From Rhizobium sp. BK650 (lineage in GTDB: Bacteria; Pseudomonadota; Alphaproteobacteria; Rhizobiales; Rhizobiaceae), in contig NZ_JACIBK010000010.1 of the NCBI RefSeq assembly GCF_014195325.1, forward strand, positions 186,001-250,000: a stretch of DNA of 64,000 nt, in the 5' to 3' direction. Under the pieces are notes generated by a model that was not told where the DNA came from, made no database searches, and saw only the letters and a program-made list of their open reading frames with translations. The first letter of the stretch is position 1, and each line of letters begins with the position of its first letter. A program made the translations under genes and the position numbers. Below are positions 18,756 through 57,507 of this stretch, piece after piece.

Positions 18756-19744
18756 GTGCGCATCAATCGCCTCGACCTTACGCGCTATGGCAAATTCACG
18801 GACGCGGTCATCGATTTCGGATTGCGTCCTGTCGGATCGCCGGACCTCCACGTCATTTACGGTCCAAACGAGGCCGGGAAATCGACGACCCTGGATGCCG
18901 TCCTCGATCTGATCTTCGGGATCGGGAATACGACGAAATATGCGTTCCTGCATCCCTACAACACCATGCGTCTAGCGGCGAACGTTCGCGTGGCAGGTCA
19001 GCACAGGGAATTCGTCCGTATCAAGCGGCCGCAGAACAGTCTGCTCGATCAGGAAGAGCGGAGTCTGGCCGATACGGAGATACGGGCCGACCTTGGCGGG
19101 ATCGACCGCGATGCTTTCTCGACAATGTTTTCACTGGATGATGTCACGCTCGAGAAAGGCGGTGAGAGCATTCTCGCAAGCAAGGCGATCTCGGTGAACT
19201 GCTTTTCTCCGCAAGTGCCGGTCTTTCCGATCTCAGCCGCCAGCTTCTCGCGATAACCGCCGCGGAACAAGCACTGAAGCTCTATAGAGATCGCCATCGG
19301 AGTGGAATGATGACAAGGGCATCCGAGGCGTTCAGGATCATCAGCCGCGGAGCCTACACGGGGGTCGCCGCGCAGCCCGGCAAGGACGGCGAGGTTCTCA
19401 TCGCCGTATCGGCGAACGGCGGTTCGAAGATCGCCGACGAACTCTCCAAGGGCGCGCGCTTCCAGCTCTATCTCGCGCTTCGGGGGGCGGGATATCACGA
19501 GTTCGTCGCCAATCGCGCACCCATTCCGTTTATCGCCGACGACATCATGGAAACATTCGATGACTTCCGCGCCGAGGAGGCCTTCCGATTGTTCACCGAG
19601 ATGGCCGGGCATGGGCAGGTAATCTATCTGACGCATCATCGGCACCTGACCGAGATTGCCAAGAAGGTTTGCCCGGGTGTCAGGTTGCACGACCTGGAGA
19701 CGGTTCAATCGGTAAGTCGGCTTGATGGCATTGCGGCGGAGTAG
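18756..19744 (+). pseudogene. YhaN-like AAA ATPase remnant with frameshift and internal deletion
   Basis: YhaN-like proteins are SbcC/Rad50-type ATPases of more than 1000 residues. Here the N-terminal ATPase half begins at GTG 18756 (RINRLDLTRYGKFTDAVIDF, Walker A GPNEAGKST) and continues to GGESILASK near 19188. A one-base loss there shifts the frame; the next frame reads GDLGELLFSASAGLSDLSRQ. At about 19250 this runs straight into the C-terminal part (ALKLYRDRHRSGMMTRASEA), with the whole coiled-coil middle missing. The C-terminal half keeps KGARFQLYLALRGAGYHEFV and PIPFIADDIMETFDDFRAEE and ends at TAG 19742-19744. The gene cannot make a functional ATPase. Confidence 0.8.
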
Positions 19745-19843
19745 GGTGTAAGACCATATGTCCGTCTTCGTGGCGGAGGTGGCTCGCCCTACAACCGACC
19801 GCCGTGCGGGCCATGTCACTGACAAAGCCCGCACATCTACACA

Positions 19844-37554: not shown

Positions 37555-37602
37555 GTACCGAAACCCGATAGGCCCAATACGGTAGAAAGGCGTTGTACCG
37601 AA
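37555..37602. promoter_or_regulatory. Repeated GTACCGAA motif between cupin and MocR-type genes
   Basis: GTACCGAA occurs at 37555-37562 and again at 37595-37602, 40 bp apart, with an inverted CGGTA at 37580-37584 between them. MocR/PdxR regulators often use direct repeats with an inverted element, so this is a candidate binding site for the adjacent regulator. The second copy overlaps its possible start codon. Confidence 0.5.
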
Positions 37603-40339: not shown

Positions 40340-40963
40340 TCAACGGTAGCGAGACCACAATTCATGTATTGCCTCATGCGTTGTCTCAGGTGCTATTTCT
40401 TGAAGGACATCAAGCCCTTGAGGCAACGCGTAGCGGCCGTTGTTTCCTTCCAGCGACGCAAAGAATTCGATGCTAGTTATGCCCATCGCGGCAAAAATCG
40501 TGCGAAGGTAAGGACGCAAGAAGTCAGGCCCGCTGCCCACTTCAAGGGCCTGGGAAAGGCTGACGAATACAGGTCGATCGGAGAGTAGGCCGACCATCCT
40601 GTTGTCAACGTAACGGAACGTCCTATTGGGTCTCACGACGTGGTCAATCCATGCCTTTAGGGCGGACGGTACTGTTAGGTTATGCATAGGGGTAGCGAGC
40701 ACGATGGCTTCGCTTTCGACGACTTCCTCGATGAGTTCGTCGGATAGCAGCCGTGATCCTATGGGTTCCTCAATCCGCGAATGCGTCCGCGATGAAATCG
40801 AAAACTCACGATCGATGTGCGGTATATTAGAGTCGTTCAGGCATCGAACGATTACCTCTATTTCGCTGGCTGATGCGACCAGCCTATCAATCATTTGGCG
40901 GGAGAGACCAGCACTCGCAGAGGCGTGTCCTCGGGGGCTACAGATCAAATGCAAGATCTTCAT
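40340..40963 (-). CDS. FMN-dependent NAD(P)H azoreductase (AzoR-like)
   Basis: A 207-residue flavodoxin-fold reductase. The FMN phosphate loop is CSPRGHASASAGLSRQM, and the isoalloxazine-binding stretch ATPMHNLTVPSALKAWIDHV followed by RPNRTFRY is the AzoR hallmark. These enzymes reduce azo dyes and quinones by two electrons. The start ATG overlaps the end of a small upstream gene by four bases. Co-transcription with a cyclase is unusual. Confidence 0.9.
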   Translation of the reverse strand: MKILHLICSPRGHASASAGLSRQMIDRLVASASEIEVIVRCLNDSNIPHIDREFSISSRTHSRIEEPIGSRLLSDELIEEVVESEAIVLATPMHNLTVPSALKAWIDHVVRPNRTFRYVDNRMVGLLSDRPVFVSLSQALEVGSGPDFLRPYLRTIFAAMGITSIEFFASLEGNNGRYALPQGLDVLQEIAPETTHEAIHELWSRYR

Positions 40964-41336: not shown

Positions 41337-41708
41337 TCAATGCCGGCTCTTTGTGGAGATGAAAGCAAGCAAGTCGGTTGAGTTGATAGGCTTTTCCAGA
41401 AAGCCTGCAGCGCCGCCGTTCACTACCGCCGCTTTGGTCCGAGTGTCGGCGAACGAGGTCATGATGCATACTGGAGGGCCTCCTTGCTTGACCAGCGACT
41501 CCAAAAGCTGAAGGCCGCTGGTGCCTGGCATTTTAAGGTCGGCGAGAACGCAATGCACTTTGCTCACATCACCGGACGCCAGGAATTCGTCGGCGGAACA
41601 GTAGGTCATGCTGCGAATACCGATCGCGTCGAAGAAGTCATGGAGTGACTCCAACAGAAAGCGATCATCATCAACTATGGCGACCATCGTGTGGGGCTTG
41701 GGACGCAT
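41337..41708 (-). CDS. single-domain response regulator (CheY/FixJ receiver)
   Basis: A 123-residue receiver domain with no output domain. Acidic pocket VAIVDDDRFLLESLHDFFD, phospho-acceptor Asp in CVLADLKMPGTSG, Lys in AAGFLEKPINS. It lies 66 bases downstream of a FixJ-like gene and is the last gene of the kinase operon that starts at 44572. It could act as a phosphate sink or by protein contact. Confidence 0.9.
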   Translation of the reverse strand: MRPKPHTMVAIVDDDRFLLESLHDFFDAIGIRSMTYCSADEFLASGDVSKVHCVLADLKMPGTSGLQLLESLVKQGGPPVCIMTSFADTRTKAAVVNGGAAGFLEKPINSTDLLAFISTKSRH

Positions 41709-41774: not shown

Positions 41775-42470
41775 CTAGCTGATGAGTTCATATTGCCGAA
41801 CAAGGTCGGCCAAAGATTTTGCGTGCATCTTTCGCATCACGCTACCACGATGAAGCTTGACCATGATCTCGCTGATCCCCAGCTCAAATGCGATCTGCTT
41901 GTTCATTAGGCCACTGACCACCAGCCCGAAGATCTGTGTCTCGCGCTGCGTAAGGGTGTTTGCGCGGGATTGGATTTCTATGCGGTGGTACCTTTCCTGC
42001 TGTTGGTCGCGATCCAAGCAAAAGGCAGCTTCGATGGCGTTAAGCAGATCTATGGTGCGGAGCGGCTTCTGAAGAAAGTCTACCGCGCCGGCCTTCATCG
42101 CGGTTACGCTTGTCGCGACATCGCCATGTGCGGTCATGAAGATTACGGGCAGATCGAACCCGTTAGCATGCAGTTTCGCCTGAAACTCGATACCATCGAC
42201 CCCTGGAAGGCGGACATCGAGGAGAACACATCCCGAGTCGGCCTTTGAAGCCCTTTCAAAAAACGAAGCCGCGTCCTCGAACGCTTCTGCCTCTATATCG
42301 AGCGATTGGAAGAGATCTAGGAGCGATAGACGAAACTGTTCGTCGTCCTCGACAATATGGACGACCTGTCGCTGTACCAAAGGGGGCTCGACGGATTTGG
42401 CAGCGTCTGCCATGACAGGTCCTCCAACCGGAATTGATGGCATCGGATCAGGGTGCATTCTACCGCTCAT
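41775..42470 (-). CDS. FixJ-like response regulator (receiver + LuxR-type HTH)
   Basis: A 231-residue regulator with the receiver at 30-150 (HIVEDDEQFRLSLLDLF, Asp in GCVLLDVRLPGVDG, Lys in DFLQKPLR) and a LuxR-type helix-turn-helix at 165-228 (LTQRETQIFGLVVSGLMNKQ; VKLHRGSVMRKMHAKS). The gene starts 29 bases after the PAS-kinase gene, its obvious partner. It is about as similar to the regulator at 32484-33140 as paralogues usually are, so cross-talk is possible. Confidence 0.93.
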   Translation of the reverse strand: MSGRMHPDPMPSIPVGGPVMADAAKSVEPPLVQRQVVHIVEDDEQFRLSLLDLFQSLDIEAEAFEDAASFFERASKADSGCVLLDVRLPGVDGIEFQAKLHANGFDLPVIFMTAHGDVATSVTAMKAGAVDFLQKPLRTIDLLNAIEAAFCLDRDQQQERYHRIEIQSRANTLTQRETQIFGLVVSGLMNKQIAFELGISEIMVKLHRGSVMRKMHAKSLADLVRQYELIS

Positions 42471-42499: not shown

Positions 42500-44572
42500 C
42501 TATCTGTTTGCAATCAAACGAGGAATTGTTTCAATTGCAACTTCTCGCGAGGCGTCGACGATCGGCAACGTTACTCGAAAGACCGCGCCACGGGTCCCAT
42601 CGTTTTCAGCCCAGATCGCACCACCGTGATCGCCAATGATCGATCGGCAAATTGCGAGCCCCATTCCCATCCCGTCGGCCTTTCGCGAAAAGAAGCCGTC
42701 GAAGATCTTCTCTAAGTCATTGGCTTGTATGCCTCCTCCGGTGTCCCTGACTATGAGAACTATCTTGTTTGCGGATTGGTCTGTCTCAACAGAGATTTCA
42801 CGGATGCGGGGATTGTTGGCCACTATTGCTTGAATGCCGTTGATCAAAAGGTTGACCACGACCTGCTGGAGCTGGACGCGGTCTCCTTTGATCTGGGGAA
42901 GTCCGCCGGGGAGCCTGGCCGTAACCGCTATGTGATGCGTCTGGGTCTCCGATCGCACAAATAGGGCCGCCTCCCGTACGATGTCATTGATATCGACGAC
43001 ATCGCGAACAGGATCGGATTTTACCGCCATGTCCTTTATTCGTCGGATGACTTCATTCGCTCGATGGGCGTTCTCCATGATCCGCGCCATAATCGACTTA
43101 ACCTTGGGAAGATTTGGTTCCTCTCGGGCGAGCCACCGAATTCCCGTGTCAACGTCAGTGACGATGACTGAAAGCGGCTGACGTACTTCGTGCGCAATCG
43201 ACGTCACCAATTCACCGAGAGCGGAAATGCGAGCAGCATGGGCGAAATCGGCTTCGATCTTCCTGAGTTGCTGCTCAATACGACGCTGTTCTGTGACGTC
43301 GATCATCATGATCAATGTTTTGTCCAGCTTCTCCGGATATTGAGGGAACGTAACGTAAAATAGAACGTCGAGTAGCTCGCCATCGAACGTACGGATTTTC
43401 ATTTCCTCGCTGTAGTTCCGTCCGCCTCCGAAGTGAGCAATGACTACACGAGAAGCGGCATCCGGTGTGCCGGCGAAGAGATATGATACGTCTTGCAGAA
43501 AGTCTTCTCTTCTGGTCCCTCGGAAGAGACGCATCGCGCTCTCGTTGATCTCCGTAACGACGACTGCCTCGCTGGCAAAACGCACTAAGTCGGGTTGCTC
43601 CGAAAGGTAAGCCTCGATGTTGTCTATGCCGGACGCCTTGAGATTTTCGATAACACCACTCATGACGCGAGCATCCACCTGCCAGACGGGAAGGGGTATG
43701 TTGTCGATCAGATTTCGGTAGCGCTGCTCAATTGCTGCGATTTCCCAATGGGTCTCGAGATCGCTCCACGATCCAGTCACGCTGACCGAAATGAGTGAGG
43801 GATGCTCGGGGCTCGCACGCCATACGCTAAGCGTATCGGCTCCGACGATCCGTCTAATAATTGGAATATCGCTCTCTGCCTTCAGCAGCATGGCGAGTGT
43901 CATATCCAACAGGGCATCCCTGTGGTTCTTCGGCCAGCAGCGGTATGCGCTTTTGCCAATGACTGCAGCTGGAGAGCCCTCATTTGCAAACAGTTTGGCG
44001 GCGGTGAGGTTTAAGTCTTTGATTTTGAGATAGTCAGCCAAGAAGCGGGGGTCCGAAGCGGATAGATGGTTTGCTCCGCCTTCGCCGCTACTGGCCATTT
44101 TCCGGAGTGCCGCGGTTGCGCTGGATATATCAATACTCCAGACTGCCACCCAGTCCCTCTGGATGCCGACCGAATCCCCTTCGACTATGCGCGGATCTGC
44201 TTGCCGACCAAGTTCGATAAAGAAATCCGCGTTGTTTGCTTCGGCTCGATGACGTCTCACTCGGATTTCGACAAGCAACGGTATCCCATCCGCCGTGCGT
44301 CGTTGGACGATACCCTGCCAAGAGCGTTTCGAGTCTACGTGGTCCGGCCTGAGTCCATCAATTGACTCCCCGAACAGTTCAGCCGCTGTCTTTCCGATTG
44401 CTTCCGAATTTACGACACCGTAAAGCAGATGGGACGCCTCGTTCCAATGAACGATGCGTCCTTCCGCGTCATAGATAACAATGCTTTCGCTCGACGCGTC
44501 GGCGATCTCTACGACCAAGCTGTCCATGGCGCGCTTCGCTGAATCGATCTTTTTGTTAGCTCTTTCGGCCAT
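42500..44572 (-). CDS. PAS-domain sensor histidine kinase, soluble
   Basis: A 690-residue kinase without clear membrane segments. A PAS domain lies at about 25-140 (ESIVIYDAEGRIVHWNEASH), further PAS-like parts at 170-290 and 285-420, then the phospho-acceptor His near 460 (SIAHEVRQPLSVIVTDVDTG) and the ATPase domain (NLLINGIQAI, VRDTGGGI, GMGMGLAICRSI). The domain order resembles FixL-like rhizobial kinases; I cannot show a haem-binding PAS. It is the first gene of the kinase/FixJ-like/CheY-like operon. Confidence 0.93.
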   Translation of the reverse strand: MAERANKKIDSAKRAMDSLVVEIADASSESIVIYDAEGRIVHWNEASHLLYGVVNSEAIGKTAAELFGESIDGLRPDHVDSKRSWQGIVQRRTADGIPLLVEIRVRRHRAEANNADFFIELGRQADPRIVEGDSVGIQRDWVAVWSIDISSATAALRKMASSGEGGANHLSASDPRFLADYLKIKDLNLTAAKLFANEGSPAAVIGKSAYRCWPKNHRDALLDMTLAMLLKAESDIPIIRRIVGADTLSVWRASPEHPSLISVSVTGSWSDLETHWEIAAIEQRYRNLIDNIPLPVWQVDARVMSGVIENLKASGIDNIEAYLSEQPDLVRFASEAVVVTEINESAMRLFRGTRREDFLQDVSYLFAGTPDAASRVVIAHFGGGRNYSEEMKIRTFDGELLDVLFYVTFPQYPEKLDKTLIMMIDVTEQRRIEQQLRKIEADFAHAARISALGELVTSIAHEVRQPLSVIVTDVDTGIRWLAREEPNLPKVKSIMARIMENAHRANEVIRRIKDMAVKSDPVRDVVDINDIVREAALFVRSETQTHHIAVTARLPGGLPQIKGDRVQLQQVVVNLLINGIQAIVANNPRIREISVETDQSANKIVLIVRDTGGGIQANDLEKIFDGFFSRKADGMGMGLAICRSIIGDHGGAIWAENDGTRGAVFRVTLPIVDASREVAIETIPRLIANR

Positions 44573-44843: not shown

Positions 44844-45473
44844 TCAGGCGGCAGCGCTTGGAATTTTTGCATGTAGCAGGCCGCGAGTTACCGACGTCAC
44901 TCGACGCCCCTGGAAGCGTGCGACCGCCAAATGGTCGTCGTCCGGCCTCAGGCTATCGCGGGCGGAGACGTGTGTTGCGCCGTAGGGCGTGCCAGCCTTG
45001 AACATCGCCGGGTCCGCGTAGCCAAGTGGAACGATGATAAGCCCCAGATGTGCCATCGGGGTGTAAATGGATAGGAGTGTGGACTCGTTTCCGCCGTGCA
45101 GAGACGAGGTCGAGCCGAAAACCGAGCCAACCTTGCCATTGAGTTTTCCTTGGAACCAGAGGCCGCCGAGACCATCGATATAGGCCTTGAGTTCGGAGGA
45201 GATGGATCCAAAGCGCGTAGGCGTCCCGAACACAATCGCATCCGCCCACTCGGCGTCCGCCTCGCTCGGAGCTTCGTATTTCTGGTTCATAGCCTGCGCG
45301 TTCTCGCGCCAGCCCGGCACCTGGGACATAATTTCATCGCCGACAAATTCGCGCGTGCGACGAAGACGTACCTCCGCGCCCTCCTCGATTGCTCCCTGAG
45401 CGATCGCATTTGCGAGAATTTCGGTCGAGCTGTTCCGCGAATAGAATGCGATCAGCACCTTTGGTTTTGACAT
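44844..45473 (-). CDS. wrbA: NAD(P)H:quinone oxidoreductase, WrbA family
   Basis: A 209-residue flavodoxin-like protein: FMN loop IAFYSRNSSTEILANAIAQG, the WrbA stretch AIVFGTPTRFGSISSELKAY, and FGSTSSLHGGNESTLLSIYT. WrbA reduces quinones to hydroquinones by two electrons. CGGAGGC precedes the ATG. It diverges from the dioxygenase operon across a 335-base region with two matching inverted repeats. A hydroquinone produced here could be the substrate of the divergent pathway. Confidence 0.93.
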   Translation of the reverse strand: MSKPKVLIAFYSRNSSTEILANAIAQGAIEEGAEVRLRRTREFVGDEIMSQVPGWRENAQAMNQKYEAPSEADAEWADAIVFGTPTRFGSISSELKAYIDGLGGLWFQGKLNGKVGSVFGSTSSLHGGNESTLLSIYTPMAHLGLIIVPLGYADPAMFKAGTPYGATHVSARDSLRPDDDHLAVARFQGRRVTSVTRGLLHAKIPSAAA

Positions 45474-45570
45474 ATCTGCCTCCGGGTTTCGCTGTTAGCT
45501 CATGCCACAGCCGTGCCTGGAAAATGGAGAACCTCAACGGGAGCAAGAAGCCGTCAAAAGCCGGAATGTG

Positions 45571-45588
45571 CGTCCAAAAATTTGGACG
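45571..45588. promoter_or_regulatory. Inverted repeat CGTCCA-N6-TGGACG, copy 1
   Basis: CGTCCAAA and TTTGGACG are perfect eight-base arms around AA. The same 6-6-6 pattern recurs 113 bp downstream. It lies 98 bases upstream of wrbA and 221 bases upstream of the dioxygenase start. A dimeric regulator site is likely. Confidence 0.65.
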
Positions 45589-45682
45589 ATCCTCCACAAT
45601 GACGCTTTCCGCGGGAATCTACGCGTCGAATCTCGGTCCCCGGTAGGGCCTGCCAGGCAATCCCACACCGACAGTGCGGCTT

Positions 45683-45702
45683 GCGTCCATGATTTTGGAC
45701 GC
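45683..45702. promoter_or_regulatory. Inverted repeat CGTCCA-N6-TGGACG, copy 2
   Basis: GCGTCCA (45683-45689) and TGGACGC (45696-45702) are perfect arms with a six-base spacer. The outer 18 bases match copy 1 in pattern and spacing. It lies about 107 bases upstream of the dioxygenase start. Confidence 0.65.
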
Positions 45703-45808
45703 TCCGTTTCTGTCGCGCGGACTTCAGGTGGCGAAAACCTGGACATACGGTTGCAGTCGATCGAGCCAGCCGAGGCCGAGAACGAAGGAAAAATAGCAAA
45801 GGTGGAAC

Positions 45809-46972
45809 ATGAACCAGATGGTCATCAGAGGCGTCAACAGCCAGACTTTCGTTGCAGCCAATATCAGGCGGACTGAGGACTTCTATAGCAGGGTTCTCGG
45901 CTTGTCGGTCGTAAAGAGGACGGTTCATCACCATGACGCCCGCCTTCCGATCGTCACCTTTGGTTTCCAGTCGTTCGGAAGTGAGCCACAGCGTGGCGAA
46001 ACCATCACGTATATCGAGTGGAATCCCATTTTTTATATGATGCCGGATGGAGGTTTCGTCGAAGAGAATGCCACCCGTGACGGCGTCGCGAATCCTCGGG
46101 TCGGGGATCCCAAGGGACGTTGGGGTGCCGGTACGAACCATCATCTTGCTCTGCACGTGCCGAACAGGGACGGTCTCCTAAAGTGGAAGCGCCGCCTTTC
46201 CGGTCACGGCGTTCATGTGACCGGACCCTACAATAGGCACTACTTCCATGCGATCTACCTGCGCGATCCCGACGGCGCAATTATCGAAATCGCGACGACG
46301 GAGCCCGGCTTCGGCCACGACGAGGCCGTCCTCGGCTCAGGGTTTCGCCCGCAACCTAAGGAAAACCTGATCGGTGGTCGCGACGAATTACAGGTCGCCC
46401 TTGAAACCTGGCCCCGGCCGGTGCCCCAAATCACATCCGATTTCGCCCTTCGAGGCTTTCATCACATCACATCTATTTCGAGCAATGCGGAGAGAACCGA
46501 GAACTTCTTCGTGGAGAAGGTGGGACTTAGACTCATCAAGAAGACCGACTATCTCGACGAGAAAGGCGGAACCCACTTCTATTACGCCTGCGACGAGGAC
46601 CTATCGCCCGGTTCTGTGCTGACCTTCTTCGGTCTGCCCGGATATAGGAGTGGCCGGCTTGGTACCGGACTTTCGCATCACTTTGCGTTGGAAGTAGAAA
46701 ACGATGCCGCTCTCGCCGACGAACATGCGCGGTTTAAGAAAGTCGGTATCGACGTGTCGACGATCCAGGACACGGTATACGCACGCCAGTTCCTTTTCCG
46801 TGATCCGGATGGCCATATTTGCGCACTGTCCACCCCGAACCGCTTTACGATAGACGAAGACGCCGCCCTCTTAGGTCAGAAGCTATGTCTTCCGGAGCAT
46901 CTGGAAAGCGAACGCCGCAAGATCGAACGTCATATCACGTACCGTCCCGCACCTGTGCCGGTACTGCCGTAA
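45809..46972 (+). CDS. VOC-family ring-cleaving dioxygenase, two modules (MhqO-like)
   Basis: A 387-residue protein with two vicinal-oxygen-chelate modules. Module 1 (residues 1-160) begins VNSQTFVAANIRRTEDFYSR and carries NHHLALHVP and a Glu in DGAIIEIATTEPG. Module 2 (about 205-350) begins FALRGFHHITSISSNAERTE and has GLSHHFALEVE. The layout fits the MhqO/MhqA group, which act on hydroquinones. AAGGTGG precedes the ATG. It opens an operon with a maleylacetate-reductase-like gene 35 bases downstream, which supports aromatic ring cleavage. The precise substrate is inferred. Confidence 0.85.
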   Translation: MNQMVIRGVNSQTFVAANIRRTEDFYSRVLGLSVVKRTVHHHDARLPIVTFGFQSFGSEPQRGETITYIEWNPIFYMMPDGGFVEENATRDGVANPRVGDPKGRWGAGTNHHLALHVPNRDGLLKWKRRLSGHGVHVTGPYNRHYFHAIYLRDPDGAIIEIATTEPGFGHDEAVLGSGFRPQPKENLIGGRDELQVALETWPRPVPQITSDFALRGFHHITSISSNAERTENFFVEKVGLRLIKKTDYLDEKGGTHFYYACDEDLSPGSVLTFFGLPGYRSGRLGTGLSHHFALEVENDAALADEHARFKKVGIDVSTIQDTVYARQFLFRDPDGHICALSTPNRFTIDEDAALLGQKLCLPEHLESERRKIERHITYRPAPVPVLP

Positions 46973-47007
46973 ACGACGACGAGCCCCCTGGATGGCAGGA
47001 GTGAAAC

Positions 47008-48126
47008 ATGCAGCAGCTTGATTTTCTACCGCAAGAGAAAGTCGTCTGGGGCCGCCAAGTCCTTTCCGACGCCCTGACGAAACTTGGTCGCTACGGCATC
47101 GATAGGCCAATATTGTTCACGGTGGGGCCGCTGGCTGAGCTCGCCAACGAGGTGGTCGCCGCCTCGGGCTCCGACGTCGTTGGCGAGTTCGTAGATTTCC
47201 CGCCGCATGTTCCCGAAACTACCGTGAACGACGCTCTGCGGGCTTGCGAAGGCACTGGGGCCAAATCGATCATAGCCCTTGGAGGAGGCTCGGTACTCGA
47301 CGCCGCAAAAGCCGTATCGCACTTCCATCAACTGCGGCACGGAAGTCATCTCCCGATCGTCGCCCTCCCCACCACATTGTCGGGCTCGGAATTTTCGCAT
47401 TATTTCGGCGTGACCGAAATGGTAGGGGCGGTCAAGTTCAAGCGAAGCTATGCAGTCAGGGAGACCGCTCCGCGGGTCGTGATCATCGACCCCGAACTAA
47501 TCCGTGGAACACCCCGCAGGTTGCTGCTCTCTTCGGCGATCAAGGGGATCGACCATGCCGTTGAAGGGATGCGGCTGGTCGAGCCAGACCACCCGCACGC
47601 GATTCTTGCGGCCAGCGGTGTGTCTCGTTTTTTGACAGTCCTCAATCGATGGCCGTCGGGCGTCGAAACAAAACTAGCGTTCGACGCCGGATCGATCACG
47701 CCCGACGACCTCCTTCAACTCCAGTTGGCTGCCTGGCAATGCTATTTCTTTCCAGCATCCGTGATTTATGGCTTGAGCCACCGTATAGGTCACATTCTCG
47801 GGGGAACGTTCGGCGTTCCGCACAGCCTGACGTCCTGCATCACGCTCGCGCCGGTCATCGCAGCGTGCGCGTCCTTCTACGGGGAAAAGCTGAGGATTTT
47901 TAACGGCCAAGCCTCCGGACGCGAAGCCGCCTCCGTTCTCTCAAGTGACATCGCTGGCGTTGTGACTTCACTCGGCTTGCCCTCGAAACTGAGGGATATT
48001 GGCTTCGACCGAAGCCTTCTCTCACACGTTGCCGAATTGCTGCTCGAAAACTATCCCCGGGAGGTTGACGATCTCGGTGTAGACGCTCGCGCCAAACTTG
48101 CCGACTTACTTGAGAGCCTCTGGTAG
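47008..48126 (+). CDS. iron-containing alcohol dehydrogenase, probable maleylacetate reductase
   Basis: A 372-residue group III dehydrogenase. The NAD loop is ALGGGSVLDAAKAVSHF, metal-binding His occur in GIDHAVEGMR and in YGLSHRIGHILGGTFGVPHS. The N-terminal half (PQEKVVWGRQVLSDALTKLG) is that of maleylacetate reductases, which convert maleylacetate to beta-ketoadipate at the end of hydroquinone and hydroxyquinol pathways. It follows the ring-cleaving dioxygenase closely and precedes the amidase with a four-base gap. Confidence 0.88.
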   Translation: MQQLDFLPQEKVVWGRQVLSDALTKLGRYGIDRPILFTVGPLAELANEVVAASGSDVVGEFVDFPPHVPETTVNDALRACEGTGAKSIIALGGGSVLDAAKAVSHFHQLRHGSHLPIVALPTTLSGSEFSHYFGVTEMVGAVKFKRSYAVRETAPRVVIIDPELIRGTPRRLLLSSAIKGIDHAVEGMRLVEPDHPHAILAASGVSRFLTVLNRWPSGVETKLAFDAGSITPDDLLQLQLAAWQCYFFPASVIYGLSHRIGHILGGTFGVPHSLTSCITLAPVIAACASFYGEKLRIFNGQASGREAASVLSSDIAGVVTSLGLPSKLRDIGFDRSLLSHVAELLLENYPREVDDLGVDARAKLADLLESLW

Positions 48127-48130
48127 ACGG

Positions 48131-49495
48131 ATGGAAGCAGATATGCCCCACTCCTTGGCCGAACTGCTGGCAGATTACGCTGCAGGGCGGCGGCTGCCGT
48201 CCGAAGCAATTGAGGCGGCGATTGCAACCGCCCAAGAATGCCGCGCCGGGATCCGCGCGTTTGCGGAAATCGATGGCCGGAGGGCGAGGCTATCTGCAGC
48301 CGTGTCGGACGGTCGCTATCGAGACCAGACGGCTCGAGCACTCGAAGGTGTTCCGATCGGCGTTAAGGACCTTTTCGATACAGCCGGATTGGCAACGCGA
48401 TACGGCTCGCCGGCTTATTCCGAGAACGTACCCGCTGCTGACGCTGAGATGGTCCGTATTCTAACGGAAAATGGGGCCATCATTGTCGGCAAGACGACCA
48501 CCCATGAGTTCGCCTGGGGCGTCACAACGGCGAGCGAGCATTTTGGCGATACGCTGAATCCGTGGGATCACAACAGGATCCCTGGCGGTTCGAGCGGAGG
48601 GATGGCCGCGGCAATCGCTTACGGAGCGGTCAGCGCCGGGCTCGGCACGGACACTGGCGGCTCGGTCCGCATTCCCGCAGCTCTTTGCGGAGTTGTCGGC
48701 TTCAAGCCGACCTACGGGGTGCTATCTACCGAGGGCGTCTTTCCTCTTGCACCGTCACTGGACCACGTGGGGGTATTGGGTAGGTCTGTCAATGATGTGC
48801 GGGTGATCGCAGCTGCCCTCGGCATCAAGAGTAACTCGTTCCAGACTTCGCCGTGGCGATTAGGGATCCTTGATAGAACCGATGACCGTCCGATCTCGCC
48901 GGACGTCCGGCGCTCATTCGAGCTGGCCGTGTCCATCCTTGGAAGCCACTACAAGGTAGTTGAAACAAACTACCTGCCATCGTTTAGGCGGGGCTTCGAG
49001 GCGTTTGCGGGGATTGTACTTGCGGAAGGCGGGATCGTCCATTTCAGCCGGCACGATAGACAATACATCCAGGCAATGTATGGCGCTGAGACCGCCCTTC
49101 GACTTGCGTTGGCGGAAGGGGCAACGATTGGCACTTATGCGGAGAGCCAACAAACTCGCCGAGAATTCGTCTACCAACTCGAGTCCGCAATGAGCAATCT
49201 CGACTTTCTGCTTCTTCCAACATGCCCTTGCGCCGCTCCGCCACTGGGGACGGATCGAATCACAATCGGATCGTGGAACGGCAGCATCCGAGAAGCGCTG
49301 ATGATGTACACCGCTCCGTTCAATTTAGCCGGAATGCCGGCGATATCTCTGCCGATGTTTCCGGCCGCGGTGGACGGAATGCCAATCGGATTGCAAATCG
49401 TGGCCGGTAGAGGACGCGATGAGGCGCTTCTGGCCTTCGCATCCGAGGTCGAGGCTCGTCTGGGTGTTCGTCCGAATGGCGATGAACGGAAATAA
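48131..49495 (+). CDS. amidase-signature-family hydrolase
   Basis: A 454-residue amidase. The Ser-Ser-Lys triad is visible: Lys in IGVKDLFDTAG, first Ser in PGGSSGGMAAAIAYG and nucleophile Ser in GTDTGGSVRIPAALCG. The ATG at 48131 or 48143 is the likely start; the frame extends upstream into the previous gene. Amidases in aromatic operons often remove an amide from a substituted aromatic or from a pathway intermediate. The substrate is unknown. Confidence 0.9.
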   Translation: MEADMPHSLAELLADYAAGRRLPSEAIEAAIATAQECRAGIRAFAEIDGRRARLSAAVSDGRYRDQTARALEGVPIGVKDLFDTAGLATRYGSPAYSENVPAADAEMVRILTENGAIIVGKTTTHEFAWGVTTASEHFGDTLNPWDHNRIPGGSSGGMAAAIAYGAVSAGLGTDTGGSVRIPAALCGVVGFKPTYGVLSTEGVFPLAPSLDHVGVLGRSVNDVRVIAAALGIKSNSFQTSPWRLGILDRTDDRPISPDVRRSFELAVSILGSHYKVVETNYLPSFRRGFEAFAGIVLAEGGIVHFSRHDRQYIQAMYGAETALRLALAEGATIGTYAESQQTRREFVYQLESAMSNLDFLLLPTCPCAAPPLGTDRITIGSWNGSIREALMMYTAPFNLAGMPAISLPMFPAAVDGMPIGLQIVAGRGRDEALLAFASEVEARLGVRPNGDERK

Positions 49496-49516
49496 TGGTC
49501 AGGGGAGGATGGCTAA

Positions 49517-49945
49517 ATGTCTGTACAAGCGATTTTGATGGATAAGGGGTGCCACGTCGTAACCGCGGCTGGCACCGATACTGTAAAAGACGCTTGCCGT
49601 CTGCTTCACACGAACCACATCGGCGCAGTGGTGATCGTTGACCGCGAGAATCGGATCGAGGGTATATTCACCGAGAGGGACGTAGTCGCGGCCATAGCTC
49701 AGCGCGGTATCTCGTGTATGGATCTGCAGCTCTCCGAAGTTATGTGGAAGAACGTCTTCTCCTGTAGCCGATCGACGAGCATCAACCGCTTGATGGACAT
49801 CATGAATAAACAAAAAGCTCGCCATCTCGCTGTGGAGCACGACGGTCGTCTGGCCGGTATAGTCTCGATCGGTGACGCTGTCAGGCACCACATCCGGGCC
49901 ATCGAATACGAGGCGGAACACATAAGATCATACATCGCTGGTTGA
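49517..49945 (+). CDS. CBS-domain pair protein
   Basis: A 142-residue protein made of two CBS motifs (VTAAGTDTVKDACRLLHTNH, then GIFTERDVVAAIA; and SRSTSINRLMDIMNKQKARH, then GIVSIGDAVRHH). Stand-alone CBS pairs usually bind adenine nucleotides and modulate other proteins. GGGGAGGATGG lies before the ATG. It is 21 bases downstream of the amidase gene and so probably in the same operon. Confidence 0.93.
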   Translation: MSVQAILMDKGCHVVTAAGTDTVKDACRLLHTNHIGAVVIVDRENRIEGIFTERDVVAAIAQRGISCMDLQLSEVMWKNVFSCSRSTSINRLMDIMNKQKARHLAVEHDGRLAGIVSIGDAVRHHIRAIEYEAEHIRSYIAG

Positions 49946-50046
49946 AGTCGGCAGATCGGATTCAAACCGAAATTTGATAGCCATGCCTGGAGGTTAGGGG
50001 CTAGAGTGTTGACTCGTTGGACCGGAAAGGCGAGGGGACGCACGCG

Positions 50047-50667
50047 ATGCTTAGACTCTATGACAGCCGTTATTCAGGCAATTCATGGAAGATAAGGATC
50101 CTGCTAAACCAACTGAAGATGCCTTTCGAGCGACGCACCCTCGATCTAGAGTCGGGCGAGACCAAGACCGACACTTTTTACAAGTTGAGCCGCTTCAGTC
50201 GTGTCCCAGTTCTGGAACTCGAAGACGGACGGAGTGTAGTCGAGTCGGCTGCAATTCTTCTTTATCTAAGCGAAGGTACGCAGTACCTTTACGACGATCC
50301 GTATTTGCGGTCCCAAGTCATAGGCTGGATGTTTTTCGAGCAAGGAGACCTCCAACGCTTTCTCGCTATGGCGAGAGTCTACCATATTCGCGGCTTAGCC
50401 GACAAAATGTCCCAACAGATCGAGCGGCTCCACGCTGACGGTTATCTGGGGCTTGAAAAGCTGGAGCGCTGGCTTGCCAGCCATGAGTGGCTGGTGGGGG
50501 AACGATACACAGTGGCCGATTTGGCGGTTTTTGCGTACGTTTCGCTGGCCCATCAGGGAATGTATGAGATGGAGCGATTTGTTGGCATTTGCTCATGGCT
50601 CCGACGGGTTAAGGCCCAACCAGGGTGGATCGATATATTCGATCAGAGCCCCTACCAATTGGTTTAA
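50047..50667 (+). CDS. glutathione S-transferase family protein
   Basis: A 206-residue protein with a thioredoxin-like N-terminal domain (LRLYDSRYSGNSWKIRILLN, Ser in SGNSWK as the possible active residue; RVPVLELEDGRSVVESAAIL) and a helical C-terminal domain (LVGERYTVADLAVFAYVSLA). GAGGGGAC precedes ATG 50047. In aromatic pathways a GST may isomerise maleyl compounds or detoxify quinones. It is the fifth gene after the dioxygenase. Confidence 0.9.
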   Translation: MLRLYDSRYSGNSWKIRILLNQLKMPFERRTLDLESGETKTDTFYKLSRFSRVPVLELEDGRSVVESAAILLYLSEGTQYLYDDPYLRSQVIGWMFFEQGDLQRFLAMARVYHIRGLADKMSQQIERLHADGYLGLEKLERWLASHEWLVGERYTVADLAVFAYVSLAHQGMYEMERFVGICSWLRRVKAQPGWIDIFDQSPYQLV

Positions 50668-50760
50668 TATCGAGACAGCCTAACAGGGGATAGACTCCGA
50701 CCAAGAATCCTCTGAGAGGCGACGGGCAAAGGGCCTTACTCGCATAGCTCGTCGCGAACA

Positions 50761-52230
50761 TTGGTCCGCATGTCTCAATACACGATTGTCTTTACCGCCT
50801 TGATCAATTTGCTCGGTATCGCGGGCATTGTCGTGTGGCACCTCCAGGGTCGGTCCCGGCCAAACGAAAGACTCATAACTCAGATTGTCTTTTTCCTGGC
50901 AATGACCGCAACTCTTGTTTGCGCACGCATCATGCCTTTTCGGTTCGACGCGCCCCACCTGGATGGAACCGGCACGCTCGTCGTGATGGCGAAGATACTG
51001 TGGTGGACACACCTTTCTTGGGCCACGATCGGGTTCGTGAGGATCTACATCGTGCTGGACGGAAGGCCGCGGGAAGCGCGCCTTATACAGGACCTGCTAG
51101 TTGCCATCGTCTATCTCGGGGTGTTGCTTTCTGTCATGGCCTTCGTTTTCGGAGTGCCAATCGGAACCATTCTTGCCACTTCGGGCGTGTTCGCGATCAT
51201 TCTCGGTCTCGCGCTGCAGAACACTCTTGGCGACGTTTTCTCGGGCATCGCCTTGACTCTCGGGAGACCCTATACGATCGGAGACTGGATATTGCTCCCT
51301 GATGGCACTGAAGGGCGGGTGGTCGCCAGCAATTGGCGTTCGACCTATCTCCTCACCGGTGCCAAGAATCAGGTTGTGATGCCGAACAGCGTTCTCGCAA
51401 AGCAGGGATTGACGAATGTCAGTAAGCCCGACGAAGCGCATCAGCTGGTTCTAGGGGTTCGCATCGTCCCGACACGCGCACCTGCCTTTGTGCTCAGAGT
51501 GATGTTGGACGCCCTAAGCAGCTGCAACAGCATTATCCAGGAGCCACCACCGAGTGTGTCCCTCATCGGAATCGACGCAGCCGCAATCGAGATTCAGCTC
51601 TTCTTCAGCGTTACCTCCTTAGCTCACCGAAGTAGTGCCAAGAATGAGATCATCGATTTGGTATATAGGCATTGCATTGCCAACGGGCTTGCCCTGGCAA
51701 GCCCGCCGGGAACCCAGATCATTTCAGACGGGCAGATCACCGTTCCAAAGACTTCAACGCTGACGTTGTTGAAGTCGATCGCGCTTTTCTCGGATCTGAC
51801 AGAGGAGGAGCAACACGCAATCGCCGCCGGCGCGATCGAAAAGAGGGCGTCCTCGGGGGAGGAGCTGTTGGCGAAGGGGTCGGTCTCCGACAGGCTGCTG
51901 ATCATTCGAGAGGGAGTCGCGTTGCGGCGCGATCAAGACGAGATCGTAGCGAGGCTAGCGCCGGGCGATGTCCTCGGCGCTTGGGGGGTATTTGCAGGCC
52001 AGCCCGAAAGCAGCCAATCTCTTACACTGACACCGGTCACCTTCTATCAGATCGAGAAGTCGGTATTCGATAGCCTCGTTGTGGATCGACCGCGCTTAAT
52101 CGAGGACCTAGCGGGACGACTCCATCGACATGGATCACATAGCGACACCGGAGCGCCTCCTCCGAACCATTCGGACGGCACACGCGCAGACCTTGTACAC
52201 GCGATAAGGAGCATGTTCGGAGCGCACTAA
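50761..52230 (+). CDS. MscS-family channel with C-terminal cyclic-nucleotide-binding-like domain
   Basis: A 489-residue membrane protein. About five hydrophobic helices cover residues 5-165, ending in the pore-lining helix FAIILGLALQNTLGDVFSGI, followed by the MscS beta domain (YTIGDWILLPDGTEGRVVA). Residues 340-455 form a cNMP-binding-like barrel (IALFSDLTEEEQHAIAAGAI; LAPGDVLGAWGVFAGQ). The phosphate-binding cassette lacks the usual Arg (PESSQSLTL), so ligand binding is doubtful. It may adjust turgor or ion flow in response to a nucleotide. Confidence 0.9.
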   Translation: MVRMSQYTIVFTALINLLGIAGIVVWHLQGRSRPNERLITQIVFFLAMTATLVCARIMPFRFDAPHLDGTGTLVVMAKILWWTHLSWATIGFVRIYIVLDGRPREARLIQDLLVAIVYLGVLLSVMAFVFGVPIGTILATSGVFAIILGLALQNTLGDVFSGIALTLGRPYTIGDWILLPDGTEGRVVASNWRSTYLLTGAKNQVVMPNSVLAKQGLTNVSKPDEAHQLVLGVRIVPTRAPAFVLRVMLDALSSCNSIIQEPPPSVSLIGIDAAAIEIQLFFSVTSLAHRSSAKNEIIDLVYRHCIANGLALASPPGTQIISDGQITVPKTSTLTLLKSIALFSDLTEEEQHAIAAGAIEKRASSGEELLAKGSVSDRLLIIREGVALRRDQDEIVARLAPGDVLGAWGVFAGQPESSQSLTLTPVTFYQIEKSVFDSLVVDRPRLIEDLAGRLHRHGSHSDTGAPPPNHSDGTRADLVHAIRSMFGAH

Positions 52231-52373
52231 CCTTCGCGCTTGGCGGCGAGAATGTCCGGCGCTTTAGAACCATCGTTCAAGTCGTTGGACCATGCGTACA
52301 AGCTCAGGAACTTCTAAAACTCAAAAGAGCTATTACTCTTCTCAACAGCTCAAAAAAAGAAAGGGGAGCTGTC

Positions 52374-53087
52374 ATGCAGGTCAATCTGAAATGGGACAAA
52401 TCCGATATCAACGGAGCAAGTATTGTCGACCAAATAATGATGGAAAGGCGGGCCAAACGCGGCTTTCTGAGCACGCCCGTCCCCCACGAAACCGTCAACG
52501 ACATCCTCAATGCAGCTCGCTATGCTCCCAGTTCCAGCAATACCCAGCCGTGGCGGTGTTACGTACTAACTGGTAGCGCGAGAGATCGCATCACATCAAA
52601 AGCAGTCGAGATCTTTCGGGCAGGTCCGGAAAAGTTGGCACCGGAATATCCGTTCTTCCCGCAGCCGTTGCATGACCCATTCATCGGTCGCTTCAATCAA
52701 TTCCGTGGCCAACTAGGCGATGCGGTTGGCGTTCCTCGGAGTGATAAGTACGGCAGACTCAAGGACGTCGAGCGCCAGTTCAGATTCTTCGGAGCCCCTG
52801 TGGGTATGATTTTCACGATGGATAGGAAGCTCGAATGGGCGAGCTTCATCTGCTACGGGTGTTTTTTGCAGAATCTGATGCTTGCGACCAAGGCAAGAGG
52901 ATTGGACACATGTGCACAGCAGATTTGGTCGCTGCAGCACCAATTGCTCCGCAGTGAGCTCGGATTTCCCGAGTCTGACATGGTGATTGCGGGCATGTCG
53001 TTGGGCTGGGCCGACAACACGCTCCCTGAAAACAATATGGTCAATAACAAGCTAACGATCGAAGACTTCGTCGAATTCGTAAGCTGA
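52374..53087 (+). CDS. nitroreductase family protein
   Basis: A 237-residue FMN-dependent nitroreductase: FMN-contact Arg pair in MMERRAKRGFLSTPVPHET, the PSSSNTQPWRCYVL motif, and GMSLGWADNTLPENNMVNNK at the C-terminus. GGGGAGC precedes the ATG. Such enzymes reduce nitroaromatics or quinones; MhqN of Bacillus, near an MhqO-type dioxygenase, belongs to this family. The 143-base leader suggests its own promoter. Confidence 0.93.
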   Translation: MQVNLKWDKSDINGASIVDQIMMERRAKRGFLSTPVPHETVNDILNAARYAPSSSNTQPWRCYVLTGSARDRITSKAVEIFRAGPEKLAPEYPFFPQPLHDPFIGRFNQFRGQLGDAVGVPRSDKYGRLKDVERQFRFFGAPVGMIFTMDRKLEWASFICYGCFLQNLMLATKARGLDTCAQQIWSLQHQLLRSELGFPESDMVIAGMSLGWADNTLPENNMVNNKLTIEDFVEFVS

Positions 53088-53194
53088 ACGCATCAGCCAC
53101 TTGACGTCACACTACCAAGCCGCCGATTAATTGGTCGTCGCGATGTCTCGCGAGGACCTTTTCGTGCTTATATGCGCCAAAGTGATAGGTGCCA

Positions 53195-54118
53195 ATGCTC
53201 GACCTCAAAGATGTGTACTTCTTTGTTCAAGTCGTAGACCGCGGCGGTTTTACTGCAGCCGGCGAAAGCCTTCGCGTACCAAAGTCAACCCTAAGTCATA
53301 GGGTCCGGGAACTTGAGGACTCCTTGGGCGTGCGGCTGATCAACCGCACATCCAGACAATTCGGCATGACGGACGTGGGGGCGGAGTTCTATCAATATGC
53401 CCTTCACATGCTCCAATCGGCAGACACCGCCGAGGAGTTCGTCCGGCAGAGGCTACACGAGCCCAGCGGTACTATTCGGATCACGACAGCGGTCGAGATA
53501 GCTCAATTCGCTCTTCGGGATCTCATCCCAACTTTTTTGAACAAACATCCCAAGGTGACGATTGTCGAAATCGCAACCGATCGGCTGGTCGACATGGTAG
53601 CAGAGGGGTTCGATTTAGCGCTCCGCGGCCATGTCGCATCCCTCCAGAATTCTACACTGGTTCAGAGAGGGATCGCTAGTGTGCCTTGGTATTTGTTCGC
53701 AAGTCCAGAATACCTGCGACAGGCGGGCGACCTGTCGAGGCCGGAAGACCTTTCGTCTCACTCCACGCTGGCCAACGACCGCCATGGAGCAGAGGTATGG
53801 CGGCTGAAAGGCCCGTTAGGTCAAGAGGTTGAAGTTCCCATAGAGCCAAGATTCCTAAGCAACAACATGATCGCTCTGAAGGAAGCGGCGTGCGCGAATC
53901 TTGGCGTCGCCGCGTTGCCTGGATACATATGTCGAGAGGAAATAGAGGCGGGGAGGTTATATCAAATATTGCCCGGGTGGATGGCCGCCGACGCTCGCAT
54001 GAGCGCGCTCATGCCCTACAGGAACGGGCTTCTCCCGGCTGTGCGGTCGCTCGTCGATTTTCTCGCGGTCGAAGTCCCCAAGGTGACCGCATTCACTCCA
54101 AGATCATTGGACGGCTAA
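53195..54118 (+). CDS. LysR-family transcriptional regulator
   Basis: A 307-residue regulator: winged helix LDLKDVYFFVQVVDRGGFTA and VPKSTLSHRVRELEDSLGVR, then an effector domain from about 95 with ESDMVAEGFDLALRGHVA-like features (actual: DRLVDMVAEGFDLALRGHV). It belongs to the large group of LysR proteins close to quinone/nitroaromatic reductase genes. It lies 107 bases after the nitroreductase gene on the same strand. Its target is not shown by position alone. Confidence 0.9.
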   Translation: MLDLKDVYFFVQVVDRGGFTAAGESLRVPKSTLSHRVRELEDSLGVRLINRTSRQFGMTDVGAEFYQYALHMLQSADTAEEFVRQRLHEPSGTIRITTAVEIAQFALRDLIPTFLNKHPKVTIVEIATDRLVDMVAEGFDLALRGHVASLQNSTLVQRGIASVPWYLFASPEYLRQAGDLSRPEDLSSHSTLANDRHGAEVWRLKGPLGQEVEVPIEPRFLSNNMIALKEAACANLGVAALPGYICREEIEAGRLYQILPGWMAADARMSALMPYRNGLLPAVRSLVDFLAVEVPKVTAFTPRSLDG

Positions 54119-55926: not shown

Positions 55927-57507
55927 ATGCCAGGAAATTCTCTGCGATCGGCGATCAGTCGTGACAAATACTCGAATTCTCAACGAGTTGTTTTGGCCAT
56001 CGCACTGACGCTCACGGTCGGCGTGGCAGTGTTGATATTTGCCGGAACAGCGCTGGCTTTTCTTCCTCTCATTGCAACAGTCTTGGTATCTTTCCGAGGG
56101 CAAACCTCTGGGATAATCAAATCTGGCATGGCAGCGGCGCTGTTGTGCTCTTTGTTGGTACTGTTAGCTTCTGGGGCCAACACGACGGTCTTAGACATCT
56201 TTTTCTTTCTAGCATCATCACTTTGTACGGTCGCCGCATTCGACTTCGTTTCCACCAACAGATCCGAAGGCAGCCATGCTGGGGTTGTCGTTGGCGACCG
56301 AGAGAAGGAATCGCTTGAGATCGTTGATTCCGACCGGAGCCTTGAGGCGCTGAGGGAAAGCGAACGCTCTCTAAGAGAGCTGGTCGAGACCCTACCCACG
56401 ATGATTTATTGCGCTACGCCGGAAGGCAAGCCGATCTATCGCAGCAGAAAACTTCAGGAGTATCTCGGATTCCGTGTCGAAGACAAAGATGGAATTCGCG
56501 CGTCTCGGCTGGAGGCAACGCTCGATGCAATTATCCATCCTGACGACATCGATCTCGTAAGGCAACGCTACGCATATTCACTGCGCACTGGTGAGCCCTA
56601 CCTCATGAAACATCGCCTAAGGAGATATGACGGAGAGTACCGGTGGGTGGAAACCCGGACAGCGCCGATGCGCAATGCGGAAGGTGTGATCATTCAATGG
56701 AATGGTGTTTGTGTTGATATCGATGACTGGGTTCGAGATCAGGAGCAACTCGGTGTCGCACAGCAAAACCTCGCGCGCGCGAGCCAGGCCGCCAGCCTTG
56801 CGGAGCTGACTGCTTCGATAGCCCATGAGGTCGGGCAGCCACTTGCGGCTATCGTCTCCAGTTCGGATGCGAGCCAACGTTGGCTTTCCGCGGATCCGCC
56901 GAATGTTGAGCGCGCACTCAAGGCTCTTGAGCGGGTAGTACGCAGCGCCGAAACAACGACGGATGTATTTAAGCGCGTGCGTGCACTTTTCAAACACACC
57001 AATGAAGCCAAACAGCCGAGTTCTGTCGAGGAGGTCATCAGTTCAGCGAAAGAGTTGGTTGTCGAGGAGGCTGTCCGTAGGAACGTGCAGCTGGAGGTGA
57101 CCATAGAATCCGATCTCCCGACAGTCTTACTTGACCGCGTGCAGATCCAGCAGGTTCTTGTCAACCTGATAAGGAACGGCATGGAAGCCGGGCATATAGG
57201 CGCAGGGCGACCTAAGGTCTCGATTGCGGCCAATACGGACGGGAATACGATAAGGATTCGAGTCCGGGATAACGGCCCGGGGCTAGCGTCCGTCGATCAG
57301 GTGTTTGAACCATTCTTTACGACGAAGGCTGACGGGATGGGGATGGGCCTCGCCATTTGCAAATCCATTGTCGAAGCACATGGCGGGCGGCTTTGGGCGG
57401 AAAATGCTGACCCCACAGGAGCTACGTTTACCTTCATGATACCGCTAGACTCGGCCGCGTCGGAACCAAAACGAAAACTCGAAGGCCACGCCTCTGCTAG
57501 CGTTTAA
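55927..57507 (+). CDS. membrane-bound PAS-domain sensor histidine kinase
   Basis: A 526-residue kinase. Residues 20-110 hold three or four hydrophobic helices (VLAIALTLTVGVAVLIFAGT; AAALLCSLLVLLASGA), then a PAS domain at about 145-265 (LVETLPTMIYCATPEGKPIY), the phospho-acceptor His near 300 (SIAHEVGQPLAAIVSSSDAS) and an ATPase domain (NLIRNGMEAG, VRDNGPGL, GMGMGLAICKSI). Its kinase core is close to those at 42500 and 57877, so the three are related. Its 3' end overlaps a convergent receiver gene by 11 bases. Confidence 0.93.
   Translation: MPGNSLRSAISRDKYSNSQRVVLAIALTLTVGVAVLIFAGTALAFLPLIATVLVSFRGQTSGIIKSGMAAALLCSLLVLLASGANTTVLDIFFFLASSLCTVAAFDFVSTNRSEGSHAGVVVGDREKESLEIVDSDRSLEALRESERSLRELVETLPTMIYCATPEGKPIYRSRKLQEYLGFRVEDKDGIRASRLEATLDAIIHPDDIDLVRQRYAYSLRTGEPYLMKHRLRRYDGEYRWVETRTAPMRNAEGVIIQWNGVCVDIDDWVRDQEQLGVAQQNLARASQAASLAELTASIAHEVGQPLAAIVSSSDASQRWLSADPPNVERALKALERVVRSAETTTDVFKRVRALFKHTNEAKQPSSVEEVISSAKELVVEEAVRRNVQLEVTIESDLPTVLLDRVQIQQVLVNLIRNGMEAGHIGAGRPKVSIAANTDGNTIRIRVRDNGPGLASVDQVFEPFFTTKADGMGMGLAICKSIVEAHGGRLWAENADPTGATFTFMIPLDSAASEPKRKLEGHASASV

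Follow-up and report, generated by a model that had tools for sequence, protein, structure and literature searches.

A rhizobial gene run of mnp type with a ring-cleaving dioxygenase whose metal site appears to lie in modules 2 and 3

Introduction

Which pathway is encoded by a gene run of Rhizobium sp. BK650 that combines the quinone reductase WrbA, a ring-cleaving dioxygenase of the VOC family, an iron-type alcohol dehydrogenase (Fe-ADH) and an amidase, and is a route of this kind new? The run lies in a stretch of 64,000 nucleotides from contig NZ_JACIBK010000010.1 of assembly GCF_014195325.1, which is referred to as the window (G000:C10:186001-250000 of the 6.4 Mb genome). As judged from homology and gene content, the run probably encodes a rhizobial pathway of mnp type for aminohydroquinone-like compounds, organized as a putative LysR/palindrome regulon and employing a dioxygenase with its putative metal site in modules 2 and 3. 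By the same comparison the kind of pathway is already known, and what is new here is the dioxygenase variant.

The gene run and its conservation

All seven gene classes which the original prediction had placed in one run at 44844-53087 are intact reading frames with Pfam or NCBIfam support, and the run is conserved in other loci. The MscS-type channel (ending at 52230) and the LysR gene (53189-54118) had been omitted there. The wrbA gene (minus strand) and the VOC gene (plus strand) diverge from a gap of 335 bp, and the plus strand continues with Fe-ADH, amidase, CBS protein, glutathione S-transferase (GST), MscS-type channel, nitroreductase and LysR regulator:

44844..45473, minus strand: WrbA, NAD(P)H:quinone oxidoreductase (NCBIfam NF002999 and TIGR01755)
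45572..45587, no strand: palindrome 1, GTCCAAAAATTTGGAC, putative operator (motif scan)
45685..45700, no strand: palindrome 2, GTCCATGATTTTGGAC, putative operator (motif scan)
45809..46972, plus strand: VOC ring-cleaving dioxygenase homologue, 387 residues; putative ligands H112 and E160 (module 2) and H219 (module 3)
47008..48126, plus strand: iron-type alcohol dehydrogenase of the MnpF branch (Pfam and tree), the inferred reductase of the ring-cleavage product
48143..49495, plus strand: amidase-signature hydrolase of the MnpE class (PF01425); start codon tentative, the open reading frame opens at 48098
49517..49945, plus strand: two-CBS-domain protein, accessory (Pfam)
50047..50667, plus strand: small GST, 206 residues (Pfam), distinct from a large GST past the window end
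50770..52230, plus strand: MscS-type channel with cyclic-nucleotide domain, accessory (Pfam)
52374..53087, plus strand: nitroreductase of the MnpA class (homology to HN-2 and pCNB proteins)
53189..54118, plus strand: LysR regulator of the MnpR class (Pfam)

WrbA scores above the NCBIfam equivalog cut-offs (180.3 against 141; 167.8 against 132.5), and its role is probably to keep the (amino)hydroquinone in the reduced state.

For the locus comparison 26 loci were fetched, of which 23 are distinct (the duplicates being L035/L040, L037/L041 and L038/L056); all counts are lower bounds, as some loci end early. VOC gene, Fe-ADH and amidase are found together in 22 of the 23, the Ruegeria locus L048 being counted for Fe-ADH with only 45% of that protein aligned, and L055 contributes the VOC gene alone. 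The further partners are LysR (at identities of at least 48%) in 19 loci, nitroreductase and GST in 17 each, CBS protein in 13, WrbA in 12 and MscS-type channel in 9. Gene orders and orientations vary between loci: in the Bradyrhizobium loci L052, L053, L054 and L057, nitroreductase, GST and LysR genes lie upstream of the VOC gene with the GST on the opposite strand, and the gene association has therefore outlived rearrangement. The run is not a chance neighbourhood.

Carriers belong to Rhizobium, Sinorhizobium, Ferirhizobium, Phyllobacterium, Bradyrhizobium, Inquilinus, Leisingera and a Ruegeria bin. A full-length VOC orthologue is present in 6 of 60 Rhizobium genomes, that of BK650 included; at E<=1e-40 one was retrieved from the order sample (199 genomes) and one from the phylum sample (299 genomes), each time from the window's own genome. 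In several named relatives the run is located on megaplasmids. On plasmid pRPC of Rhizobium sp. BG6 (L099, 8655-9186) VOC, Fe-ADH and amidase genes are missing between wrbA and CBS, and two palindromes are kept there, together with the CBS, GST, MscS, nitroreductase and LysR genes.

Correspondence to the mnp cluster

According to the sections consulted of the report on Cupriavidus CNP-8 (PMC5604080), the mnp cluster of this strain comprises the nitroreductase MnpA, the dioxygenase MnpC, the GST MnpD, the amidase MnpE, the maleylacetate reductase MnpF and the LysR protein MnpR, and its substrates are nitrophenols (m-nitrophenol and 2-chloro-5-nitrophenol). MnpC is an aminohydroquinone dioxygenase which was assayed with hydroquinone and chlorohydroquinone; its cleavage between C1 and C2 is proposed there to yield the amide 6-amino-4-hydroxy-6-oxohexa-2,4-dienoic acid, a product not identified in these sections. 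As given in the same sections, the functions of amidase and reductase were assigned by BLAST, and the 3-hydroxylaminophenol mutase lies on a different contig from the cluster.

With the window nitroreductase as query, a plasmid locus of Cupriavidus pinatubonensis HN-2 (L096) was found, in which GST, a gene of the tryptophan-dioxygenase family, amidase, Fe-ADH, LysR, nitroreductase, ring-cleaving dioxygenase and wrbA follow one another. Sequence identities between window and HN-2 proteins amount to 80.9% for WrbA, 70.0% for LysR, 67.4% for the nitroreductase, 62.6% for Fe-ADH and 51.6% for the amidase; two genes just past the window, encoding a protein like tryptophan 2,3-dioxygenase (TDO) and the large GST, reach 52.3% and 43.1%. 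From its gene content we infer that the HN-2 locus is the mnp cluster; the five-number spacing between GST Reut_C5979 and nitroreductase Reut_C5984 of strain JMP134 (as numbered in the consulted part of PMC2842291) matches the GST-nitroreductase spacing in HN-2.

The nitroreductase is 64% identical to a protein of the Comamonas plasmid pCNB, and matches of at least 60% occur in 19 of 302 plasmid records, from Rhizobium, Sinorhizobium, Ensifer, Variovorax, Cupriavidus and Comamonas (pCNB); the next-best among the matches listed is at 42%. Nine such genes form a single run on a plasmid of Variovorax paradoxus 2u118 (L098), including a 63% homologue of the small GST. In another Rhizobium locus (L095) a canonical MnpC-like gene (45%), an Fe-ADH (40%) and an amidase (35%) are consecutive, and the set of dioxygenase, Fe-ADH and amidase therefore recurs with the canonical enzyme.

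In the window an MnpA-class nitroreductase is thus linked to an amidase, an Fe-ADH and a LysR regulator from the same branches as those of the mnp clusters, and the form with modules 2 and 3 takes the place of an MnpC-type dioxygenase with a site in modules 1 and 4. Sequence comparison places the pathway in a known kind, matching mnp class for class, and a route with an amidase is on this assignment not new: the original prediction had regarded such a route as unfamiliar, and MnpE already provides the amidase in CNP-8 according to the consulted text (PMC5604080), to which the Cupriavidus plasmid locus adds WrbA. Our literature searches yielded no report of an mnp-like cluster in rhizobia, which is not proof of absence.

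The metal site of the dioxygenase

The best PDB match of the window dioxygenase is MhqO, and its initial description as MhqO-like holds for the sequence and fails for where the metal site is inferred to lie. In 22 of 22 canonical proteins (from HN-2, Variovorax, L095 and 19 Rhizobium paralogues) a triad of one histidine in module 1 and a histidine and a glutamate in module 4 is conserved, as it is in 7/7 further relatives from Haladaptatus, Meiothermus, Metabacillus and Paroceanicella (29/29 in total). At these positions the 17 orthologues of the window protein carry Ser or Asn, His and Ala; none has the full triad, and all have a histidine (H112) and a glutamate (E160) in module 2 and a second histidine (H219) in module 3 instead. 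The 17 comprise the window protein and those of 16 of the 18 fetched loci (L043 and L056 are not in the alignment), with an unannotated Paracoccus stretch (L115) left out of the ligand counts; they represent one clade, because the window protein served as the query that retrieved them and they are 73-91% identical to it. The ligands of PcpA, H11, H227 and E276, lie in stretches that align with those around H219, H112 and E160.

From these alignments it seems fairly likely that the dioxygenase works from a mirror metal site, in which modules 2 and 3 bind the iron through H219, H112 and E160 and the 1+4 site of the PcpA/MhqO/MnpC type has decayed. A four-module ancestor would have possessed two mirror metal sites, and two lineages of this fused ancestor would have kept opposite, equivalent sites for the same chemistry, the canonical enzymes MnpC, PcpA and MhqO retaining 1+4 and the window enzyme 2+3; the rhizobial enzyme would thus take the place of MnpC in an mnp-like cluster. 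By symmetry with the module 1+4 site, modules 2 and 3 would share a common cup. Internal gene conversion is a conceivable variant of such opposite retention.

HMMER reports the parts of the canonical dioxygenase in exchanged order in the window protein, which first suggested a circular permutation or domain swap of MhqO with the second domain moved to the front. Comparison of module profiles (Q1-Q4 for the window protein, M1-M4 for the canonical one) agrees with this for the inner modules, Q2 fitting M4 (110) and Q3 fitting M1 (97). The outer modules, however, are collinear (Q1 scores 40.9 with M1 and 22.9 with M3, Q4 40.9 with M4 and 17.4 with M2), the C-terminal tail fits the canonical tail (41.4) and the stretch after Q2 fits it poorly (10.9), and a global alignment with canonical enzymes is collinear throughout, including the linker preceding module 3. 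Because of this collinearity a permutation is disfavoured and appears unlikely. When the halves were exchanged for hmmsearch, the native and the exchanged order gave practically the same summed score. The consulted part of PMC5749703 mentions circular permutation for the VOC family in general terms, and PMC3222310 deals with a hydroquinone dioxygenase of two subunits. Searches of literature listings yielded no paper describing ring-cleaving VOC dioxygenases with an altered metal site, which is not proof of absence.

Palindromes and the haem protein past the window end

The whole genome (6.4 Mb) contains three copies of the 18-bp form CGTCCAN6TGGACG (reversed-pattern control, 0), two of them in the wrbA-VOC gap and the third some 105 bp upstream of the TDO-like gene. 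The two palindromes of the gap are found in 10/10 aligned Rhizobiaceae loci, exactly or with one mismatch. With at most one mismatch allowed, the 16-bp core is found upstream of genes for VOC, WrbA, TDO-like, large-GST or ADH proteins in L031, L032, L042, L045, L046, L047, L049, L052, L053, L088, L091, L092 and L093 and in the Variovorax locus L098, and a one-mismatch site precedes the window nitroreductase gene (52275-52290). The LysR protein is the candidate reader of these palindromes.

The TDO-like gene (C10:250542-251381) begins about 0.5 kb beyond the window end and is followed by the large GST. Of 18 loci inspected, 9 have it as a neighbour of the run. In the Rhizobium genomes that possess the VOC gene (6/6), its contig also carries a TDO-family gene at a distance of 13-28 kb; another 23 genomes of the Rhizobium sample have a TDO-family gene and lack the VOC gene. 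Of the 20 PF03301 loci fetched (L058-L077), 19 gave no blastp match to the TDO-like protein; the Rhizobium loci L059-L077 represent a second PF03301 subfamily, common in genomes without the VOC gene, and L058 alone entered the TDO alignment, as a yardstick. In tryptophan dioxygenase the GTGG loop holds the ammonium-binding threonine; this substrate loop occurs in 0/16 subfamily members covering it. An arginine position is kept in 17/17 and the haem-ligand histidine in 16/16 covering it, and the distal position is Arg or Lys in 17/17. Past the TDO-like and large-GST genes of L086, two divergent similar genes are found (4326-6572; 320 and 322 residues), which by eye resemble metallo-beta-lactamase-fold hydrolases.

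Proposed pathway and alternatives

In the proposed mnp-type pathway the nitroreductase would convert a nitrophenol-type precursor to the hydroxylaminophenol, unless another feeder supplies aminohydroquinone, and WrbA would re-reduce the quinone arising by autoxidation. The Fe(II) VOC dioxygenase would cleave the ring between the hydroxyl-bearing and the amino-bearing carbon to a C6 acid monoamide, of which Fe-ADH would reduce the double bond and the amidase would release ammonia, in either order, to give 3-oxoadipate. LysR would control the cluster via CGTCCAN6TGGACG, in a regulon that includes the TDO-like haem protein and the large GST. The amide most likely arises from ring cleavage itself, the amino group standing beside the cleaved bond, and not, as originally supposed, from an amide-substituted aromatic substrate.

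3-Oxoadipate is favoured as end product because pcaIJF-type genes stand beside the core in marine relatives and a PcaF equivalog is encoded elsewhere in the BK650 genome. PcaR-, PcaI-, PcaJ- and PcaF-type genes adjoin the core in Leisingera L050 and PcaI-, PcaJ- and PcaF-type genes in Ruegeria L048 (PcaF above the equivalog cut-off and the other Pca genes above subfamily cut-offs in both), and homologues of Pca-type genes are present in Leisingera L051. Feeder steps may differ between hosts, because an Amidohydro_2 protein is encoded near the core in L032 (WYJ-E13) and L051.

We take Fe-ADH to be the reductase of the ring-cleavage product, its substrate perhaps being the amide form. In an unrooted FastTree phylogeny of 18 proteins (L005 gave no match and was left out) it clusters with HN-2, Variovorax and other cluster members (support 1.0). 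The earlier outline of quinone reductase, hydroquinone-type dioxygenase and a reductase leading towards beta-ketoadipate is retained; the protein labelled 'maleylacetate reductase' there falls outside the classical branch in this small tree. Fe-ADHs carry a metal-binding aspartate; its position is occupied by Lys in the window protein and by Asn in six maleylacetate reductases compared.

Hydroxyquinol-type operons, composed of an HpaB-type monooxygenase, a flavin reductase, a classical maleylacetate reductase and an intradiol dioxygenase, are found near the run in Phyllobacterium L047 (2862-8617), Bradyrhizobium L054 (850-6662) and Rhizobium L088 (15417-19897), identified by Pfam in L047 and by homology in the other two; homologues also occur in L090. 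Searching for MAR1 together with maleylacetate reductase gave no result.

Several observations weigh against the assignment as a whole. The Fe-ADH branch is separate from the six maleylacetate reductases, which were recognized by their annotation or context. The nitroreductase is absent from the core in 6 of 23 loci (L032, L048-L051 and L055, the last with the VOC gene only), so that the usual substrate may be something other than nitrophenol. In the scanned stretches of L048, L050, L051, L054, L055, L057, L095 and HN-2 (L096) no palindrome with at most one mismatch was detected in a suitable position, and in L089 none at all; within the window four sites are found at one mismatch where 1.7 are expected, a number reached in 5 of 100 shuffles and hence near chance. 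As the AlphaFold2 model (17 close sequences) has a mean predicted local distance difference test (pLDDT) score of 35, the metal site was placed by sequence alignment.

Among the alternatives, quinone-stress detoxification in the style of the Bacillus MhqR regulon, where WrbA, dioxygenase, GST and nitroreductase would remove toxic plant quinones without a growth substrate being involved, agrees with MhqO as the best PDB match of the dioxygenase and with some of the Rhizobiaceae loci, in which genes for WrbA, an AzoR-like reductase, GST and nitroreductase are grouped with two-component genes. We nevertheless regard it as improbable: the gene set fits mnp, and the constancy of Fe-ADH and amidase, the most constant partners (22/23 loci), together with the pcaIJF-type neighbours in Leisingera L050 and Ruegeria L048, suggests full catabolism. 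Less probable still is a pathway for an indole- or tryptophan-derived compound, opened by the TDO-like haem protein and with the amidase hydrolysing the formamide product, to which the position of the TDO-like gene in L045 and L046, flanked by the amidase and CBS genes, and the palindrome upstream of it would be suited, but which conflicts with the replaced GTGG loop (16/16 members covering it) and with the TDO-like gene of the HN-2 mnp-type locus, the corresponding cluster acting on nitrophenols as stated in the consulted text (PMC5604080).

Neighbouring genes

Upstream of wrbA the following genes were identified:

40340..40963, minus strand: second flavodoxin-fold reductase, AzoR-like (Flavodoxin_2), at identities of at least 55% in 6/23 loci
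41337-41708 and 41775-42470, minus strand: two response regulators beside the PAS kinase (open reading frame list and locus comparison)
42500..44572, minus strand: PAS histidine kinase near wrbA, in 10/23 loci (two partial), part of the Rhizobiaceae loci

Several related PAS/histidine-kinase proteins and response regulators crowd this region (57877-63465, minus strand; 55927-57507, plus strand; 42500-44572, minus strand), among them a protein of 1862 residues that by eye resembles a fusion of a protein kinase and ATPase with a histidine kinase; part of these genes are syntenic in relatives. As a candidate hydroxylaminophenol mutase, the 472-residue product of 37593-39011 was rejected, being a GntR/aminotransferase (GabR-like) protein. 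The G+C content drops at about 20 kb, from about 0.60-0.62 (window positions 1-20000) to 0.54-0.58 (20001-64000), and an acquired region is suggested by this fall.

Comparison with known systems

With the proposed assignment, a pathway described for a nitrophenol degrader would extend to bacteria associated with plants and to marine ones. The dioxygenase would represent a natural case of an active site switching sides in a pseudo-symmetric enzyme, and thus a test case for how enzymes move active sites. A conserved haem protein, of the tryptophan-dioxygenase family and lacking the tryptophan loop, is highlighted in clusters of mnp type, and a short palindrome would mark the regulon.

With the mnp clusters of JMP134 and CNP-8 the run shares the nitroreductase, a single-chain ring-cleaving dioxygenase, GST, amidase, Fe-ADH and LysR regulator, and with the mnp-type HN-2 homologue additionally WrbA and the TDO-like gene. 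It differs from mnp in a dioxygenase with an inferred site in modules 2+3, replacing the MnpC-type 1+4 site, in the CBS, MscS and two-component genes added in part of the Rhizobiaceae loci (the HN-2 cluster has no annotated CBS gene), and in the distance of 13-28 kb that separates the TDO-like gene from the VOC gene in six Rhizobium genomes.

The dioxygenase shares with PcpA, LinE, MhqO and MnpC the collinear four-module VOC architecture, linker and tail, and the motifs HHIT, G.GT.HH, NR.YF and E.AT..GF, as far as can be seen from sequence, whereas in the window protein these motifs are located in modules 2+3 and not 1+4, and its length is 387 instead of about 310 residues. Fe-ADH belongs to the same superfamily as maleylacetate reductases of the TfdF kind, and the metal-binding aspartate is absent from both; the window protein has GGGSVLDAAK and PTTLSGSE, in contrast to GGGSxxGLxK and PTTYAGSE in the TfdF kind. 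The TDO-like protein, finally, has PF03301, the haem-ligand histidine and the arginine position in common with tryptophan 2,3-dioxygenase, but lacks the GTGG loop and carries a distal Arg or Lys in place of the His of solved enzymes or the Tyr of Rhizobium L058.

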